This document shows positions 8,293 to 45,498 of a stretch of DNA of 64,000 nucleotides, piece after piece (the first letter of the stretch is position 1; each line of letters opens with the position of its first letter). This DNA is from Thiothrix sp. GTDB lineage: Bacteria > Pseudomonadota > Gammaproteobacteria > Thiotrichales > Thiotrichaceae. The stretch is from assembly GCA_008015155.1 (NCBI GenBank), contig SSFA01000008.1:310001-374000 (forward strand), read 5' to 3'. The notes under the pieces are model-generated. The model was not told the DNA's origin. It ran no database searches and saw only the letters and a program-made list of their open reading frames with translations. The position numbers and the translations under genes were made by a program.

Positions 8293-8303
8293 ATAAACCT
8301 CGA

Positions 8304-10073
8304 TTAGTTAGTTAGTGCTGTAGTTGCTGGATTTGACAGATTTAACCACCCTCGATTGACTAATGTCGTTTTATCAGCAATGCCAGCAGTGCTAGGAGCA
8401 GCATTAGTTCCAAACCGTAAATCTAGTCGTCGATTTGATGTATTAGTAGCAACCAATGTCGATAAAATATTATCGACCGCGCTTTGACTTAAGCCAAGTG
8501 CACCAAGATATATTATTGATAAATTAGGCTTTGATGCAAGTCCAGCCCCAGTTACAGCAGAACTAGAAGTATTGTAAAGATTTAATATTGTTAGATTCGG
8601 TTTATTAGCAAGTCCTGCATTAGTAATGCTGCTAAGCGTACTTGCAATACTAAGATTGTAAATTACTGTTTTGTCAAGTAATCCAGCATCGGTAATACTA
8701 CTAGCAGTATTACTTAAGCTTAATGTAGAAAGGAGTGTTTTGCCTTGCAGCCCTGCATCAGTAATAATACTAGCCGTATTATTTAAATATAAATTAACTA
8801 TTGAATTTTTATTAAGCAGCCCTGCATCAGTAATAATACTAGCCGTATTGTCTAAATATAAATTAACTAATGCTGCTTTCCCATATAACCCTACATCAGT
8901 AATAGTACTGCTTGTACTACCTAAATAAATGCTAGTTAAATAGTTTTTTCCAGCTAATCCAATATCAGTAATTAGCGTGCCAACTGTGCTGCTCAGTATA
9001 ATTTCTTGAATATCATTTTTACCGATCAACCCTGTATCAGTAATGATGCTAGATGTAAATGATAAATAAATACGCTTTAGTTTGCTCAGAGCAGAAATAC
9101 TTGAGTCTGTAAACTTAACAGCAGCTTGATTAGCTACATCAATTCGCGTAATCGCAGCGCAACTCGCATAACTAACGACAATTGCCCCCGTATAATTTGC
9201 AGCATACGGATGGACGGCTTGAGTATTACTATTATGCGTAGTAGTAGTTCCATCACCCCAGTTGACAGTATAAGGGCTGCCATCACTTGTTGTGATATTC
9301 TGAATCGTAATAGACCCAGCGTTTACTGCTTCAAACGAAAAGCTAGATGTACCGCTTGGAATCTGTCCTGTCACTGTTGCTGTTGCGCTACCGGACGAAC
9401 AGCTTGTTTGATAAGCAAATGACCATGAGCCACCACAAGCTGAAGCGGTTGGCGTAACATTAAACGTGCCGTTATTATTATTAACAACTGTCGCGTTACT
9501 CGGCGTGCCAACGATTGAGTATGTTTTTGTTTCTCCAGCGCATAGCGTGTCGTTTGCAGCTACGTCAACAACAGTCATTGCGCCAACAGCACTACCCGCC
9601 ACTACATCATCTTTTAAGCAGGGCAGCAATGCCCGCTTAGTGACTTCAACTTCATAGTTTCCACCGACGATCACTAGATCATTAGTGTACTCAGCAAAAT
9701 AATCTAAACTGTATGATTTAGATTCACCCGAATGAACAGTACCACCATTGACCGTGATCGACGTACCAGCAGCACTGGTATTGCGCACTAATACTTTTAT
9801 AAACGGTGCTTTAATCGTATTAGTACCAGACATGACTAGCGTTTGTGCAGTTGAAACCTTGTCAATCTGACTAGGATCTAGCTCTTTATAGTCATTGATC
9901 GCCAAAGTAATATCAGTTCCCTGCACTAGCACGCCACCGTAATCATGGATGATGGTGGCCTTGGTAATTACCTCAGCAGTCCCACAACCCGTCTTGCATA
10001 GACGAACTAGCACTGGATAGCAGCCAATAGCATATAGCCTATCTATTTCTTTGCAGCTCATTGATTTTCCCAC
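8304..10073 (-). CDS. Virion-module protein with PKD-like region and 23-aa leucine-rich repeats
   Basis: Repeats such as ITDAGLLNKNSIVNLYLNNTASI; upstream NWGDGTTTTH PKD-like motif. Confidence 0.7.
   Translation of the reverse strand: MGKSMSCKEIDRLYAIGCYPVLVRLCKTGCGTAEVITKATIIHDYGGVLVQGTDITLAINDYKELDPSQIDKVSTAQTLVMSGTNTIKAPFIKVLVRNTSAAGTSITVNGGTVHSGESKSYSLDYFAEYTNDLVIVGGNYEVEVTKRALLPCLKDDVVAGSAVGAMTVVDVAANDTLCAGETKTYSIVGTPSNATVVNNNNGTFNVTPTASACGGSWSFAYQTSCSSGSATATVTGQIPSGTSSFSFEAVNAGSITIQNITTSDGSPYTVNWGDGTTTTHNSNTQAVHPYAANYTGAIVVSYASCAAITRIDVANQAAVKFTDSSISALSKLKRIYLSFTSSIITDTGLIGKNDIQEIILSSTVGTLITDIGLAGKNYLTSIYLGSTSSTITDVGLYGKAALVNLYLDNTASIITDAGLLNKNSIVNLYLNNTASIITDAGLQGKTLLSTLSLSNTASSITDAGLLDKTVIYNLSIASTLSSITNAGLANKPNLTILNLYNTSSSAVTGAGLASKPNLSIIYLGALGLSQSAVDNILSTLVATNTSNRRLDLRFGTNAAPSTAGIADKTTLVNRGWLNLSNPATTALTN
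8520..9060 (-). repeat. About eight tandem 69-nt units encoding 23-aa LRRs
   Basis: Near-identical units, e.g. around 8750-8880. Confidence 0.8.
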
Positions 10074-13640: not shown

Positions 13641-15189
13641 AACTGTACTCCTTCTTTTTGCGCGGCCCTGATGCTTTGCGTTTCGGTGTGGCTTTAATTA
13701 ATCGGGATATGACAAACTCACCCGCATTCGCCGGATGTGAATGCTCGCTATTTTGATTAGGCTCTTCACTAAATGACCCCGTTGAACGGATAAGCGGGTA
13801 GTGAAAACCACCGACCATTGCATCAATAAACCGATTACAGCGCGGTGATACTAACAACTGGTCAGAGGCAATGGCGGTATCCACTACATCCCGCATCGGT
13901 GTCGTGAATTTAAAAGGGCTTTTCTCTACGGTTAAGCCTTCATTTGTTAAAACCTCGATTTGCTTCCTGCCTTCACCCCCTTCTCCATTCCAAAACGCCT
14001 GATCCGCCACAAAAATTACCGTATGCAAAGGCAGATGCAGGTTAAGGTAGGGATTCACATCATCTTTGAGAGCAGCTTTAATTGACTTTGCATCAGCCCC
14101 CACATTCACAATCTCATCAATAATCAATACCCGACCGCTATGATCCTGTTGAGCAAAAATCCACGCATTATTAAACCCGTTGTCCACGCCCACATACACA
14201 GGCCGACCGGGGATATACTTTAACTCTTGTAGCGCCACATGCCGCGTGCGTGAGAATTTTGGATACACCGGCTTGCCATTAATGTAATCGCCCCAACTGG
14301 CAAGAATATCTTGCTGAATAAGCGCATCATCACCCATCGACTCTAATAAAATATCCTCCCAATACGACCAGCCGTTATGCTTAATGTAGTGAAGTGCTTC
14401 AGGGTTGCGCATGAAAACACCTTCTTCACCATGATAGCGCCCCTCAACCCCTTGGATACTGCCATCTAATCGTGATCCCGGCATCCAAATATGGGTGGGT
14501 GGTTGCTCGTAGAGTGTTCTTCGCCTGACTCCTACTGCATTAGCTTTATTATCATCTACTAAATACTTTTTGAGCCAATGGGTTGAATTCGTATAGTTGA
14601 AGTCGAGCGTTAATTGCTTACCTCTTGCCACCTGACCATTAGGCAACTGATAGGCAATCATCGGGTTATTTTCAAAATCATCTAACTCATCTGCATTAGC
14701 CGGTGCAGGGTAACGCCCTAACCGCTTAAAAACCTCTTTAATGATAATTCCACTATCTAGCTCTTGTGCTTCGATAATAGCGCCATCCGTAAACGCCAAT
14801 GACCTGATCTTCTGTGCATCTGCTACTGTCTCAAAGGCATACAACCATAAATCACATTCCACCTTGCCAAGCTTATCTTTAAAGTAAATCTTTCCATAAA
14901 GAGGTGACTTGCGCCCACTCAAGTCAAACGCTGCCCCAGCAATCTTCTCAAAAGCAGGTACGACTGATTGCTCTAAGTCACCGTAGCGTTTACGCACAAT
15001 AATAAAGCTAGAACGCCGTACCCCATCTGGGCATGGGACAATATGTGTGGCTTTGAATAAAATACGCAATGCCTGCAGGAATGTTTTCCCCGTGCCAATC
15101 GCGCCACCAATTGCCATCACACGACTAGAAAAATCCAAGAAGAAAGCCTTTGATACCGGTGGAAGACTTGCAAACTTTATTGTGTTCAT
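13633..15189 (-). CDS. Terminase large subunit
   Basis: Walker A GGAIGTGKT; nuclease-like YVGVDNGFNNAWIF. Confidence 0.88.
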   Translation of the reverse strand: MNTIKFASLPPVSKAFFLDFSSRVMAIGGAIGTGKTFLQALRILFKATHIVPCPDGVRRSSFIIVRKRYGDLEQSVVPAFEKIAGAAFDLSGRKSPLYGKIYFKDKLGKVECDLWLYAFETVADAQKIRSLAFTDGAIIEAQELDSGIIIKEVFKRLGRYPAPANADELDDFENNPMIAYQLPNGQVARGKQLTLDFNYTNSTHWLKKYLVDDNKANAVGVRRRTLYEQPPTHIWMPGSRLDGSIQGVEGRYHGEEGVFMRNPEALHYIKHNGWSYWEDILLESMGDDALIQQDILASWGDYINGKPVYPKFSRTRHVALQELKYIPGRPVYVGVDNGFNNAWIFAQQDHSGRVLIIDEIVNVGADAKSIKAALKDDVNPYLNLHLPLHTVIFVADQAFWNGEGGEGRKQIEVLTNEGLTVEKSPFKFTTPMRDVVDTAIASDQLLVSPRCNRFIDAMVGGFHYPLIRSTGSFSEEPNQNSEHSHPANAGEFVISRLIKATPKRKASGPRKKKEYSYV

Positions 15190-16085
15190 AAAATGACAAT
15201 CTTCCTTTCATATCTCACTAAGGGATGCTTTACATCTATATCAAAAGCCTGACCTCTTTCTAAAACCACTGTACTGGCTCTGGTGATCTCAGGCTTGAAG
15301 GGTAAACGCCCACGCTTACTATGAAGATAGAGTTTCACTGCATTATTTACGACTGTTGCCGTCATCCCCGCAAAGAAACACGCGACCTGTAATAAATCCA
15401 ACGCCCGAGTTTGATAACAGCGAGCCAAGGTATTTTGCTTAGGTCGTTTCATCCCATCATGTCCACGCATGTTTGGAAATAGCAGCACTAATAAGGCGAT
15501 TGCTGCCATGTGGCACATCCGGTAACACTCTGCACGTTTCTCAGTACGTAAATAGGCTTGAGGGTAAACCAACCGATAGTCTAAATAGCGTCTAAAAATA
15601 GATAGATTTTTCTCTGGAATCGCGTGTAAACATTCACCATCTAAATGCTCTAGCGCAAAGTCTTGAATCGCTGAAACTGGATTGCACGCTGCCTGCTCTG
15701 GATAAGCGTGAGTTAAATGATGAAACCGTAAGCGGTTATCTTTGCGCTGACAGGCGCTATAAACATCCTCACCCGTTACTAACACCAATGGATTTAAAGG
15801 TGATGTTTTGTGAACAAAAAACTCATGATCGAGTGAAATAGAGTAACCTAAACAGTTACTACGAACAGTCACTAGCTCCACTTCACCTTTTTCTACTTTT
15901 TCTATTTTCTGCCAAGTGACTTTTTGATTACCCCCCATACAAGCAATCTCTTCCCCCACGACGGGGATACGCCAACCTGAAGGCGTTAATACTTCACCTT
16001 GGAACATACCTACATTCTTTTTTTGATGAGGCCCTTGAGTGAGAGAGATTGTAGACCTTATATGTAGCTCATGAACCCCGTGCAA
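15186..16085 (-). CDS. Free-standing Hint/intein-like protein (start may be Met at 16007)
   Basis: MFQGEVLTPSGW...VGEEI...GEVELVTVRSNCLGYSISLDHEFFVH resembles Hint blocks A/B; ATGA overlap with terL. Confidence 0.5.
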   Translation of the reverse strand: MHGVHELHIRSTISLTQGPHQKKNVGMFQGEVLTPSGWRIPVVGEEIACMGGNQKVTWQKIEKVEKGEVELVTVRSNCLGYSISLDHEFFVHKTSPLNPLVLVTGEDVYSACQRKDNRLRFHHLTHAYPEQAACNPVSAIQDFALEHLDGECLHAIPEKNLSIFRRYLDYRLVYPQAYLRTEKRAECYRMCHMAAIALLVLLFPNMRGHDGMKRPKQNTLARCYQTRALDLLQVACFFAGMTATVVNNAVKLYLHSKRGRLPFKPEITRASTVVLERGQAFDIDVKHPLVRYERKIVIL

Positions 16086-36879: not shown

Positions 36880-38241
36880 ATGAAAATTCTCGATGTTCAA
36901 CAAGGATCAACCGAATGGAATGCAGCCAGACTCAGTAAGTTCACAGCCTCAGAAGCACCCGCCATGATGGGCTGTGGCTGGATTACCCGTGAACAACTAC
37001 TTCGGCAAAAGAAAACAGGTGTCGAGCCTGAAATTTCAGAAAGCCAACAGCGTCTATTTGACAAGGGTCATGAAACAGAAACACTTGCACGAGCAATTAT
37101 TGAAGAAATGATCGGGCAACCGCTTTATCCAGTAACAGCTCTCAGTGATGAGCACCCTAACCTGTTGGCATCCATGGATGGTATTACGCTGGATGAAGAA
37201 GTTATCTTCGAGCATAAACTATTTAGTGAAAAACTAGCTAAACAAGTCAGGTCTCATGATTTAGAACCTAAATACTATTGGCAGCTTGAGCAGCAGTTGC
37301 TAGTTGCCAATGCCAAGTACGTTATTTTCGTAATCTCTGACGGTACTAAAGAGAATATGCACTATATGCACTACTCATCAGTACCCTCTCGGCGTGAGGA
37401 GTTAATAGCAAGCTGGGAGCAATTTGAGAAAGACCTTGAAGCCTACACGCCTCCAGAAGAACCAACTGTAGCCGCTAATATCGAGCAAGTACCGATGCTA
37501 GTCGTTCAGTCGAACGGCTTCACCTTGACCACTAACATAGATCAGATTCAAGCATGGCACCAGCTTATTAAAGATAAGTGCGCTGATGAGTTAGAAAACG
37601 ATCAAGATTTCGCAGATCGTGAATCATTGATTAAAGCGATTAAAAAAGCAGAACCCATTATTGAGCAAGCCTATCAGCAAGTCATTGGTGCATCAGGCAA
37701 TGTGAGCCTTATTCTTAACGCCCTACAAGAGATGAAAGGTTCATTAAGAAGGCTACGTTTAGATGGTGAAAAGCTCATTACGGCTAAAAAGGATCAGATT
37801 AAGCAAGGCATTCTAAGCACCTATGCTACTGAGGTGGAGCAACACCTCATCGCTGGCAATAAAAAGCTATCTGAATTACTGGGAGCAACAGTCATTATTC
37901 CCATCGAAAAGATGGAAATCACCAATGCTCTCATCACAGAAACTAAGGGAAAGCGCACGTTAGAGAGCTTCAGAAGTGCAGCAAGTGCAGCCGCCGCTCA
38001 GCTAAAAGTAGGTGCAAACCTTTTCCACATGCGTGCTAATGAAAATATAGCCCTCTTCAAAGACTGGGCTTCACATAACGATGCAAGCTCTATTAGCTCA
38101 TCTGAGTACGATCAGTTAGTTACCGACTCACAAATGCTACAACACCTCGTTGCTGAAGGCGTTGAGCAATGGGAAGGTTACGAGCGTGTTTTAGCAAAGC
38201 TGACTAAAAGTGAAGAGCTAGCAGAGCTGGAGGCAGCATGA
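36880..38241 (+). CDS. YqaJ/lambda-type exonuclease
   Basis: QGSTEWNAARLSKFTASEAPAMMGCG; FEHKLFSEKLAKQ; PKYYWQLEQQLLV. Confidence 0.85.
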   Translation: MKILDVQQGSTEWNAARLSKFTASEAPAMMGCGWITREQLLRQKKTGVEPEISESQQRLFDKGHETETLARAIIEEMIGQPLYPVTALSDEHPNLLASMDGITLDEEVIFEHKLFSEKLAKQVRSHDLEPKYYWQLEQQLLVANAKYVIFVISDGTKENMHYMHYSSVPSRREELIASWEQFEKDLEAYTPPEEPTVAANIEQVPMLVVQSNGFTLTTNIDQIQAWHQLIKDKCADELENDQDFADRESLIKAIKKAEPIIEQAYQQVIGASGNVSLILNALQEMKGSLRRLRLDGEKLITAKKDQIKQGILSTYATEVEQHLIAGNKKLSELLGATVIIPIEKMEITNALITETKGKRTLESFRSAASAAAAQLKVGANLFHMRANENIALFKDWASHNDASSISSSEYDQLVTDSQMLQHLVAEGVEQWEGYERVLAKLTKSEELAELEAA

Positions 38242-40520: not shown

Positions 40521-41888
40521 ATGAGTTTAAACAACGTTTTAGACAAGTCCCTCCCCTATGGAGTTCGATTGTCGCTATATATTGGTGCATGGCTGCTAGC
40601 CATCGTCATGGGCATAGCTGGGGTGAGTACCTACTACTCTAGCAATCCAAGCCCGATTGGTTTCATTAAAGCTATTTTTCTCTTTGCTGGATTCCTGCTG
40701 ATTTTGCATGGTGCTAGCGGAATCTTATTTGATTCTAGTAAACCTGTCAGCTGGCGAGCGATTGCCCTAGTGGTTGCCATCTCTATGCTAGCAGTTGATA
40801 CCTTTACTATCTCCCATGAGCAACAGACTGGCATCATGGAAAAGATTAAAACCAGTCAGCAGGCCGTGACGGACTCCAGCACCAAAGCCCAGCACTTAGC
40901 AGGCTTACGAAAAGAGCTAGCGGCTTGCCCCGAAAACCATTACACCAAATGCAAACAACCCCTATTGGCAGCAATTCAACAGGCCGAAACTAGCACGGGT
41001 GGAACCGCTTTTAACGCTAATGCAGCGGGTGAAGAGGCGTACTGGGTAGCGCTAGCGGAATGGTTTAATAAGGATCGTCTGCCCGAAGACAAAATTGACG
41101 CAGGCCAAGTGGCTCTCTATGTTTATGCCTTTTTAGGTTTCTTAGGTTCAGTCTTTATTATTTTGGGCTTTGGTTTTTATGGTGCAACCACTTCTGACCA
41201 GCAGCACTCACCTACTCCACTGCCACCCACTGGCACAGACGACACCACTCATAAAGGTAGTGACTACCGCACCAGCAAAGTAGGGTTCAACTCCCCTGCT
41301 CCTGTGCCTGCTGCTAACAGTAAAGGAACTGTTTCAAACAGTTCAGCGAACACTAAATACAGTTCAAGAACAGTTTACCCCGCTCAAAATACAGTTCGAG
41401 TTGAGCGTTCAGCTACCAGCGCTAGTGTGCCTAGAGCTACATCAATAGCGCCTGCTGTGACAATGGGCAGCCCATCAAGCGCACAAGCTAAAGCTGCGCA
41501 ACGCTGGCATTTAACCGATGGGAATGCGGCCTTGGACACTTCAACTGTTTTAGAAACACCCACTGTTTTAACCCCTTCAACTGTACCGGAACAGTTCAAT
41601 CTGTCTAAAAATACAGCAGAAGGGGATAGAAATACTGAAAAATACAGCAGTTTTTATGCCGCTTATGATGAAGCGCTACGGACTGGAGTAGTCGGGCGAG
41701 CTACTGTTAGGCCAACTAAACAATGGCTCGCAGAACAGTTAAAACAGTCCGAAGTACAGTTAAATACCGTTGAGCGTGACAACTGCGTGAACTGGCTACT
41801 CGCAGAAGCGGAGCGGCGCGGTCGTATTCGTCCTGTGTTTGGGCGTGATGATAAGCATCCCCAAGGACGTTGTGAGGTAGTGAAATGA
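40521..41888 (+). CDS. Four-TM membrane protein with Ser/Thr-rich linker and basic C-terminal domain
   Basis: ORF; four hydrophobic segments; C-terminal RPTKQWLAEQLKQSEV...LLAEAERRGRIRPVF. Confidence 0.65.
   Translation: MSLNNVLDKSLPYGVRLSLYIGAWLLAIVMGIAGVSTYYSSNPSPIGFIKAIFLFAGFLLILHGASGILFDSSKPVSWRAIALVVAISMLAVDTFTISHEQQTGIMEKIKTSQQAVTDSSTKAQHLAGLRKELAACPENHYTKCKQPLLAAIQQAETSTGGTAFNANAAGEEAYWVALAEWFNKDRLPEDKIDAGQVALYVYAFLGFLGSVFIILGFGFYGATTSDQQHSPTPLPPTGTDDTTHKGSDYRTSKVGFNSPAPVPAANSKGTVSNSSANTKYSSRTVYPAQNTVRVERSATSASVPRATSIAPAVTMGSPSSAQAKAAQRWHLTDGNAALDTSTVLETPTVLTPSTVPEQFNLSKNTAEGDRNTEKYSSFYAAYDEALRTGVVGRATVRPTKQWLAEQLKQSEVQLNTVERDNCVNWLLAEAERRGRIRPVFGRDDKHPQGRCEVVK
41327..41761. repeat. 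ACAGTT/AACTGT array, 10 exact sites
   Basis: Starts 41327,41338,41359,41370,41391,41543,41579,41591,41735,41756; includes GAACTGTTTCAAACAGTTC. Confidence 0.9.
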
Positions 41889-42136
41889 ACGATGAACACA
41901 GTCTTGGCCTAACCGACCCACGCATCATCCAGATTCTGAACCAGACGAAAGAGGGCAGAGCCAAACTTCAAAGTTGGCAAGAACGCAAAGCGAAAGAATC
42001 ACCTCAGCCTCAACACAATGAGCCAAGCCTTTCACTGAAAAACTTTATCAATGCCCTCGTGTTTTCCCTGATTATTGCAGCGCTGCTAACACTTTTGATG
42101 ATTGGGATTATTGAGGTGATACGGTGGATTTTTTAA
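41885..42136 (+). CDS. Small membrane protein
   Basis: ORF, C-terminal TM, ATGA overlap. Confidence 0.55.
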   Translation: MNDEHSLGLTDPRIIQILNQTKEGRAKLQSWQERKAKESPQPQHNEPSLSLKNFINALVFSLIIAALLTLLMIGIIEVIRWIF

Positions 42137-44128: not shown

Positions 44129-44356
44129 ATGGACAACAGAATAATCCCATACGAAGAACTAAGAGAGTTGCTTGGCACGACCACACCGGCTGAAACACTA
44201 ATTGTTACTCAGAAAAGGGGTATTCCGGTTCAACTCTCTAAACATAATTCACCTCGCCCCTTCACAACCCTGCGAGCATTAGAAAGCTCAATGGGCATGA
44301 AACAAAACTCTGATATATCATCCAACGATGAAGAGTTTGTTGTAAAAATCATATAA
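44129..44356 (+). CDS. Small protein upstream of integrase (excisionase/DUF4224-like candidate)
   Basis: ORF with SD; position before int. Confidence 0.4.
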   Translation: MDNRIIPYEELRELLGTTTPAETLIVTQKRGIPVQLSKHNSPRPFTTLRALESSMGMKQNSDISSNDEEFVVKII

Positions 44357-44367
44357 GAGGAGGATAT

Positions 44368-45498
44368 ATGGCAGGAACTCGCAGAGTAAAAACACCCTAC
44401 CCGCTGCCTTATGTTTACGTAAACAAGGGGCGAGTAGAGTATAGGCCGAGGGTCAGCTTTGAAGATAGAGAGCAAGGTGTGCCAGTTGATAAAGGCGGGT
44501 TTTTGAAACCGCCTATTAAGTTAGGTGTGGAAGGCGATTCACTAGAGGATATAACTAAGGCATGGCTAGCCGCTAAATCCTCTATTCGCCGTGAAACTGT
44601 TTACAAAACTTGCACACTCTACTGGATTTTAGACAAGTATCAGCATTCTCGAAAATATGCAGAACTAGCACCTTCTTCGCAAAAGCGAAATAAAAACCTC
44701 ATCAAAATCCTTGAACACAAACTCGAAATTAACGGAAAGCCTGCAACCCTAGGTGATTTGCACATAAAAGCCATAAATAAGCCATTATTCAGAGCATTGG
44801 CAGAGCGTCGGTTAAATGATTATCGTGCCTCTGGTAACAAAGGCGAGGTACAAGTTAATCGAGAAATCACACTAATATCATCAGCGCTATCATGGGCGGT
44901 TAGTAACCTTCCTGAACTGGCAGAACTAGGCATCCATGAAAACCCTTTGCTCAAAATAGAAAAAATCAAAGAGCACCAGAACGAGCGATATATCACAGAC
45001 CAAGAATATGAGATTCAGTACCAGATTGCTGCTGAGGTCTCTGACTACTTACAGCCAGTCATGGAGCTAACCTATCTCACGGCCTCACGCGGCATTGAAA
45101 CGCTGGATTTAAAGTTATCGGATTGCTCAGAAATTGGCATTAAGACGACACGGCGCAAAGGCAGTCGGGACAACATTATTCTGTGGTCGCCACGGCTTTT
45201 AGCAGCTAAAGAGGCTGCACTGGCTTTGCATAAATCGCGCAAGATACGCCAGATCGACCCGCATTTAATACCCGGCTTTAGTGGTGGGGCCTTGGCAAAA
45301 TCAACCCTTGATGCAGCTTTTCAACGACTTAAGAATTTAATGGAAAGCAGAGGATTAGCAGATACCTATTTTTCACTGCACCTTCTTAAAGCAAAGGGAG
45401 TTAGTGATTCGGATGATAAGGGTATTGCAGGTCATGTAACCGAAGCTATGCGCCAACGTTATGACGTAAAAGTACACGAGCATAAGCCAGCTCGGTAG
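44368..45498 (+). CDS. Tyrosine-type site-specific integrase
   Basis: TYLTASRGIETLDL, HLLKAKG, AGHVTEAMRQRYD. Confidence 0.85.
   Translation: MAGTRRVKTPYPLPYVYVNKGRVEYRPRVSFEDREQGVPVDKGGFLKPPIKLGVEGDSLEDITKAWLAAKSSIRRETVYKTCTLYWILDKYQHSRKYAELAPSSQKRNKNLIKILEHKLEINGKPATLGDLHIKAINKPLFRALAERRLNDYRASGNKGEVQVNREITLISSALSWAVSNLPELAELGIHENPLLKIEKIKEHQNERYITDQEYEIQYQIAAEVSDYLQPVMELTYLTASRGIETLDLKLSDCSEIGIKTTRRKGSRDNIILWSPRLLAAKEAALALHKSRKIRQIDPHLIPGFSGGALAKSTLDAAFQRLKNLMESRGLADTYFSLHLLKAKGVSDSDDKGIAGHVTEAMRQRYDVKVHEHKPAR

Follow-up and report, generated by a model that had tools for sequence, protein, structure and literature searches.

Does a membrane-protein gene carry, within its own coding DNA, the sites that its product reads? 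This question is raised by a locus in Thiothrix sp., of which we analysed a stretch of 64,000 nucleotides (the window). Across the window the hexamer ACAGTT, counted together with its complement AACTGT, occurs 32 times against 33.4 expected, which is chance level; the anomaly is therefore the clustering of the motif rather than its number. Ten exact copies (41327-41761) fall within a single open reading frame (ORF), where ∼0.23 would be expected per 435 bp at the window rate (Table 1).

A clustered array in a prophage gene

A first-pass annotation of this locus had reported ten such sites in ∼435 bp and proposed that they form a protein-DNA array, such as a centromere, second origin or silencing site, with the gene's own C-terminal domain as a possible ligand. 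Recounting bore out the ten sites, the perfect 19-bp palindrome (an odd palindrome with two 9-base arms about a central C), the occupation of all three codon phases and the presence of degenerate copies, with 30 sites at no more than one mismatch against 4.7 expected, near-palindromic sites being scored on both strands. Successive exact sites are spaced by 11, 21, 11, 21, 152, 36, 12, 144 and 21 bp. The helical phasing that had been claimed for them describes the first five sites (11-21-11-21) only and is not a general property, since whole-helical-turn spacing was not seen among the dyads of the family described below (60, 33, 48, 69, 35, 15 and 23 bp and others). The last two sites sit within DNA coding for the putative DNA-binding domain, and linker-coding DNA holds most of the others.

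The annotation had also suggested codon-preserving shuffles and a genome-wide look at the motif. In 20,000 synonymous-codon shuffles of 155 codons, ACAGTT averaged 3.2 copies with a maximum of nine, so that ten was never reached, and free permutation of the array codons gave a mean of 0.7 and a maximum of six. The peptide (Thr-Val, Asn-Ser) raises the expected count, and the ten sites remain unexplained by it. A triple ACAGTT cluster proved unique to the window gene within its own genome (4.16 Mb), and none was found in seven genomes of the same genus.

The gene lies in the early region of a tailed prophage, with genes for a RecE-like exonuclease and a NinB-like protein upstream and an excisionase-like gene and integrase downstream. 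Its 455-residue product had no family match in Pfam, PHROG or NCBIfam. Hydropathy gives four transmembrane (TM) segments (residues 14-39, 43-72, 74-99 and 194-223), in agreement with the first reading, and both cysteines of the pair in the TM3-TM4 loop are invariant in a three-member alignment. The C-terminal domain, which had been called basic, is not strongly so (14 Lys and Arg against 11 Asp and Glu). A model of the full-length protein has a pLDDT of 40 and is unreliable; within it, low-confidence helices span residues 371-388, 400-409 and 416-434.

Table 1. Features of the window gene and its surroundings (window positions)
Feature	Position	Strand	Basis
Gene of the 455-residue protein: four TM segments, linker and C-terminal putative DNA-binding domain	40521-41888	+	ORF, hydropathy, profile-search homologs
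Four-TM part, residues 14-223, with Cys pair LAACPENHYTKC in the TM3-TM4 loop	40560-41189	+	Hydropathy
Ser/Thr/Ala/Pro-rich linker, about residues 224-376	41190-41648	+	Composition; low model confidence, residues 183-400
Putative DNA-binding domain, about residues 377-455	41649-41885	+	Alignment to family C-termini
Ten exact ACAGTT/AACTGT sites and degenerate copies	41326-41761		Count, synonymous shuffles, own-genome uniqueness
Exact sites with orientation	41327-, 41338+, 41359+, 41370+, 41391+, 41543-, 41579-, 41591+, 41735+, 41756+		Motif count
Perfect 19-bp palindrome GAACTGTTTCAAACAGTTC	41326-41344		Made by the first two ACAGTT sites
83-residue single-TM protein overlapping the gene end; possible partner, membership only conjectural	41885-42136	+	ORF
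Excisionase-like gene (44129-44356) and integrase (44368-45498), element boundary on this side (context)	44129-45498	+	PHROGs

Other genes of the window have features of their own. The C-terminal stretch of the RecE/YqaJ-like exonuclease (36880-38241) matches the T7 gp5.9 RecBCD inhibitor family (PF25708, E 3e-8), so that the product is apparently an exonuclease fused to a RecBCD inhibitor. A 589-residue phage protein (8304-10073) contains an internal 69-bp tandem repeat at 8751-8909 with a peptide of the type ITDAGLxxKxxLxxLYLxNTAS. Directly before a terminase-like gene, a 299-residue ORF (15186-16085) shows stretches (LTPSGWRIP, SLDHEFFV) that, judged by eye, recall inteins or Hint domains; it may represent a split or inserted terminase.

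Homologous genes with motifs of their own

Searches of genome contigs and viral contigs with short peptide patterns returned no homologs, whereas whole-genome profile and protein searches did. The first homologs were a gene on a 26.6-kb Thiothrix subterranea plasmid, whose product is 48% identical to the window protein in its N-terminal part, and a chromosomal gene in another Thiotrichaceae genome; the ACAGTT array is absent from both. In the matching position the plasmid gene carries 14 GAGCGTA sites, of which the first eight point one way and the last six the other, spaced 12-21-9-105-9-12-12-11-21-12-21-12-33. The annotation had held that homologs lacking both the sites and their spacing would speak against an array. 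The first of these was found in this nearest homolog and the second was not: the motif has changed and the 11/12-21 spacing has been kept. All nine copies of the 10-mer GAGCGTATCC on the T. subterranea plasmid fall in the family gene, and no close pairs of it occur outside the family gene in four Thiothrix genomes. In the second homolog, a set of GTCCGGAC and GTTCGGAC sites runs on into the next small ORF (8298-8591 of locus L009, genome G077). Two separate genes there encode a similar peptide (RPDAGSDAF) from these sites, a hint that what is maintained is the DNA sites and not one protein.

An intergenic 33-bp tandem array, GTTCAATGGTTGAACTGTTTTTAGCGSTTAATG, was considered as a relative of the window array and set aside, as it is intergenic and has another consensus; its 4.4 copies (9645-9793 of locus L008, contig C6 of genome G000) belong to an integrated element that also has an integrase gene and a Rep-like gene.

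Profile searches found the family in 29 of 64 Thiotrichaceae genomes, with up to 16 matches per genome and several in the genome of the window itself, and no match among 387 sampled gammaproteobacterial genomes outside Thiotrichaceae. Members are laid out as four TM segments followed by a linker and, at the C terminus, a DNA-binding-like domain (DBD). Pfam at curated level gave no family in the window protein and seven homologs, hence no FtsK/SpoIIIE-type ATPase domain. Family genes reside in plasmids and integrated elements; two elements viewed more widely are about 6-10 kb long and hold integration and replication genes, with no structural genes recognised among the listed ORFs. In 39 cases the gene immediately upstream encodes a small three-TM protein (about 80-130 residues), which may be a membrane partner. 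Genes of the AlpA, resolvase, Toprim and DUF3987 kinds recur in the neighbourhood, as do replication initiators, which fall into four unrelated types: Rep_3, Rep_trans, phage GPA and phage O (Phage_rep_O). No partner NTPase is evident among the recurrent cassette neighbours; a ParA-family gene on one Thiothrix plasmid lies away from the family gene. An extreme form of array is seen in one family member (L102, genome G034), which combines GGAACGGATGG-type repeats (GGAACGGA, 14 copies) with a Gly-Thr-Asp repeat tail.

We sampled 80 distinct family genes of at least 400 codons from Thiotrichaceae mobile elements and scored a gene as positive when it held at least two near-identical dyads, with 126 neighbouring ORFs and synonymous shuffles as controls. 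Such pairs were present in 57 of the 80 family genes, in none of the 126 control ORFs and in 2.7% of synonymous shuffles of the family genes; no pair was detected in the other 23 family genes. A blind test for repeats and palindromes against synonymous shuffles likewise separated the two groups, 45% of family genes and 2% of the 126 control ORFs reaching p<0.01. Palindrome content alone is a weak test gene by gene (10% at p<0.01), the requirement for two matching dyads being decisive. Measured back from the gene end, the start of the last dyad lies at a median distance of 289 bp. Instead of ACAGTT, each homolog has a motif of its own at the corresponding position, immediately ahead of the DBD codons.

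Where their distribution was followed, the sites are private to the family. All 12 copies of ACCGTGCNNGCACGGT across six whole genomes lie inside family genes, as do all perfectly symmetric copies of ACCNTNAGCTNANGGT, the few others being asymmetric and chance-like. This confinement excludes ordinary promoter operators for these two motifs.

Privacy of the tested sites, together with the chance-level count in the window, also ruled out ACAGTT as a dispersed uptake or restriction signal. Nor was incompatibility-driven avoidance of common sites seen, site sharing among co-resident elements being 0.32 against 0.27. In one genome (G086), two co-resident plasmids (L087 and L088, contigs C5 and C1) encode nearly identical DBDs, and ACCGTGCCCGCACGGT sites are common to both, a point against any strict incompatibility acting through these sites. 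Elsewhere (L061, contig C6 of genome G005), two convergent family genes within 5 kb have a common site, ACCCTTAGCTAAGGGT, in two copies each.

Co-variation of the C-terminal domain with the sites

If the C-terminal domain reads the sites, the two should change together. With identity in the membrane part controlled for, motif sharing was correlated with DBD identity (partial Mantel r 0.27, permutation maximum 0.14, p 0.0005). Individual pairs illustrate this in both directions: L033 and L014 are 96% identical in the membrane part, yet differ in DBD and sites, whereas L014 and L081 are only 20% identical in the membrane part, yet have 87% identical DBDs and exact sites in common. As judged from these comparisons, DBD and sites move jointly between unrelated membrane scaffolds, a form of cassette swapping.

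Within the largest DBD class the correspondence extends to single positions. A helix with PSVK goes with the half-site ACCG (4/4) and one with PSVE with ACCC (4/4), and Asp at the same position goes mostly with ACCC; three residues further on, Trp accompanies A at base 7 (14/14) and Arg accompanies T (5/5; Fisher p 9e-5), p-values being indicative as the half-sites were picked by hand and the members are related. In an unbiased scan of all DBD columns, the top-ranking column for base 7 is Trp/Arg; for base 5 it is PSVx, which also comes second for base 4 and third for base 6. On these alignments, single residues in this class track single bases (Lys-G, Glu-C, Trp-A and Arg-T).

Some family members have a zinc-ribbon C-terminus instead of the winged-helix type, with dyads of their own (TACATG, TACACG and TACAGA types), so two unrelated types of putative reader show the same arrangement. 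The assignment to the winged-helix type is consistent with a model of the DBD of L121, a member of the class (three helices and two strands forming a wing, pLDDT 73), whose best fold matches are mostly winged-helix proteins, none of them significant (none with E <0.001). The window DBD is 20% identical to its nearest DBD and too divergent for a test of the residue-base code, so that the reading of the window gene would follow from its array and from analogy with the family. For the family, we strongly infer that each DBD recognises the sites carried by the gene that encodes it. The earlier proposal of an array with its own C-terminal domain as ligand is thereby strongly supported on comparative grounds, namely arrays in the same place, DBD co-variation and private sites where tested.

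Proposed membrane tethering, its rivals and known systems

We give an even chance to the reading that the family consists of membrane-anchored, site-specific DNA-binding proteins with cognate sites inside their own genes, which would tether element DNA to the membrane. This reading starts from the arrays, their privacy where tested, the DBD-motif co-variation and the cassette swapping that the comparisons above demonstrate. The four TM segments would hold the protein in the inner membrane and a flexible linker would let the C-terminal domain reach DNA, where it would bind, as a dimer or in an array, sites in the linker-coding DNA. Since the reader would sit in the membrane, binding would fasten the DNA of the element (a plasmid, a prophage or a small integrative element) to the membrane, with the family gene itself as the point of attachment. 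The context of several initiator types and small autonomous elements favours placement for replication or segregation, and we infer that tethering would most likely serve one of these. With sites and reader adjacent in one ORF, recombination would transfer the pair as one specificity cassette from one membrane scaffold to another. Against tethering, the window element is a prophage and needs no segregation while integrated; against a classical centromere, the cassette has no NTPase partner and co-resident elements do not avoid common sites. With somewhat less than even confidence we go further and propose a self-addressing class of mobile-element genes, with scaffold, private address and reader in one ORF, an exchangeable cassette, a legible residue-base code and at least two unrelated reader types, which would amount to a one-gene membrane centromere outside the known partition types.

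Autoregulation, in which the protein would bind the sites in its own gene, block transcription and keep its own level low, is unlikely. Self-recognition is strongly indicated and the sites lie within a transcribed gene, but they are ∼1.2 kb into it, the tested exact dyads are absent from the promoter and elsewhere, a block near the 3′ end would yield truncated messages, and a membrane anchor would be unnecessary. Unlikely to a closely similar degree is a role in DNA transfer or packaging, the protein carrying element DNA to a membrane export or injection apparatus. Such a role would suit very small elements that have no visible transfer genes of their own, and Rep_trans initiators, which occur in filamentous phages too, are among the family neighbours. 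A membrane protein with repeats of its own also resembles a coupling protein at a clt-type site, as in TraB and clt (PMC3583192). However, the protein is without an ATPase or motor domain, no relaxase or coupling protein was seen adjoining the family gene, and the tailed prophage that harbours the window copy has a terminase itself.

We consider it improbable that the sites are iterons for the element's replication machinery, with the membrane protein secondary. Family genes are close to replication initiators at many loci, and in SaPI-type elements the origin adjoins the gene for its own reader protein (PMC7581432), but here the motif tracks the DBD of the membrane protein itself, and initiators as unrelated as those listed above leave no single one as a common reader. 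A second origin, another of the roles first suggested for the array, is less likely because many family cassettes hold a separate replication initiator. Highly improbable is an origin of the DNA repeats as a by-product of repeated linker peptides. With 47 of the 57 dyad pairs in frame, and repeated peptides such as KPLAKG in existence, in-frame duplication contributes; the ten pairs out of frame mean that peptide duplication is not the general cause, synonymous shuffles seldom give pairs, the window sites use three phases, dyad symmetry is not required by peptide repeats, and residue-base co-variation also stands against it. Least credible are dispersed selfish palindromes, uptake signals or RNA hairpins sitting by chance in tolerant linkers, for although linkers tolerate insertion and short inverted repeats can fold in mRNA, matches to the tested sites outside family genes are asymmetric and at chance level, the site sequence changes gene by gene with the DBD, many dyads are loopless, and the oriented half-site arrays of the window and L002 are no hairpins.

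How does the proposed tethering by the family compare with known systems? FtsK, in its N-terminal and gamma domains, has the layout predicted for the family, with four TM segments joined by a linker to a winged helix at the C terminus, which recognises short sequences; the family differs in having no ATPase motor and in sites private to one gene, those of FtsK being spread over the chromosome. The membrane protein p16.7 of phage phi29 binds DNA and positions replication at the membrane, a likeness that for the family is putative, but it has one TM segment and little sequence specificity. We know of no private site array in the p16.7 gene. AlpA of prophage CGP3, described in a paper that also names p16.7, is an adaptor that binds alpS repeats beside its own operon and has been suggested to guide phage DNA to the membrane to be replicated (PMC4446434); in contrast to the family, it works with an actin-like filament, AlpC, its sites are in a promoter region and it has no membrane domain. 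Plasmid partition of the ParB-parS kind likewise has centromere-like sites and a DNA-binding reader encoded alongside (in the family a putative one), and an element-specific centromere-like site array was indeed found here. However, the family cassette is without a ParA-, ParM- or TubZ-type NTPase and its reader is an integral membrane protein.

SaPI Rep and SCCmec Cch2 are element proteins that use a C-terminal domain to read repeats lying right beside their genes (PMC7581432), but these are replicative helicases whose sites are origins, whereas the family has no helicase and stands beside separate initiators. In Streptomyces conjugative plasmids with TraB and TraA-clt, the clt of pWTY27 covers 16 bp of traA (PMC3583192, PMC5365140). 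The likeness is of a membrane protein whose C-terminal winged helix reads plasmid-specific repeats in or beside its own gene, which in the family is predicted only; TraB is an FtsK-type ATPase pore, whereas the family has no motor domain and its sites are mostly dyads inside linker-coding DNA. Regulators of the ToxR/CadC type have operators at target promoters, whereas the symmetric exact sites of two motif classes all lie within family coding regions.

By the tests made, the family belongs to none of these systems, having no motor, no filament or NTPase partner and no helicase, and no account of sites in linker-coding DNA co-evolving with an adjacent encoded reader was found in open-licence papers. 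We rate the arrangement as categorically new, although its biochemical purpose may prove to be a variant of DNA anchoring. Coding DNA seemingly serves its own product as a docking array, an arrangement repeated across dozens of genes whose motifs differ. Three questions are thereby opened to experiment: by what means element DNA is attached to the membrane in bacteria, how the specificity of a protein for its DNA site evolves while the two are passed on as a unit, and whether binding can be predicted from a residue-base code drawn from natural pairs. It also hints that DNA sites may be hidden within linker-coding DNA elsewhere.
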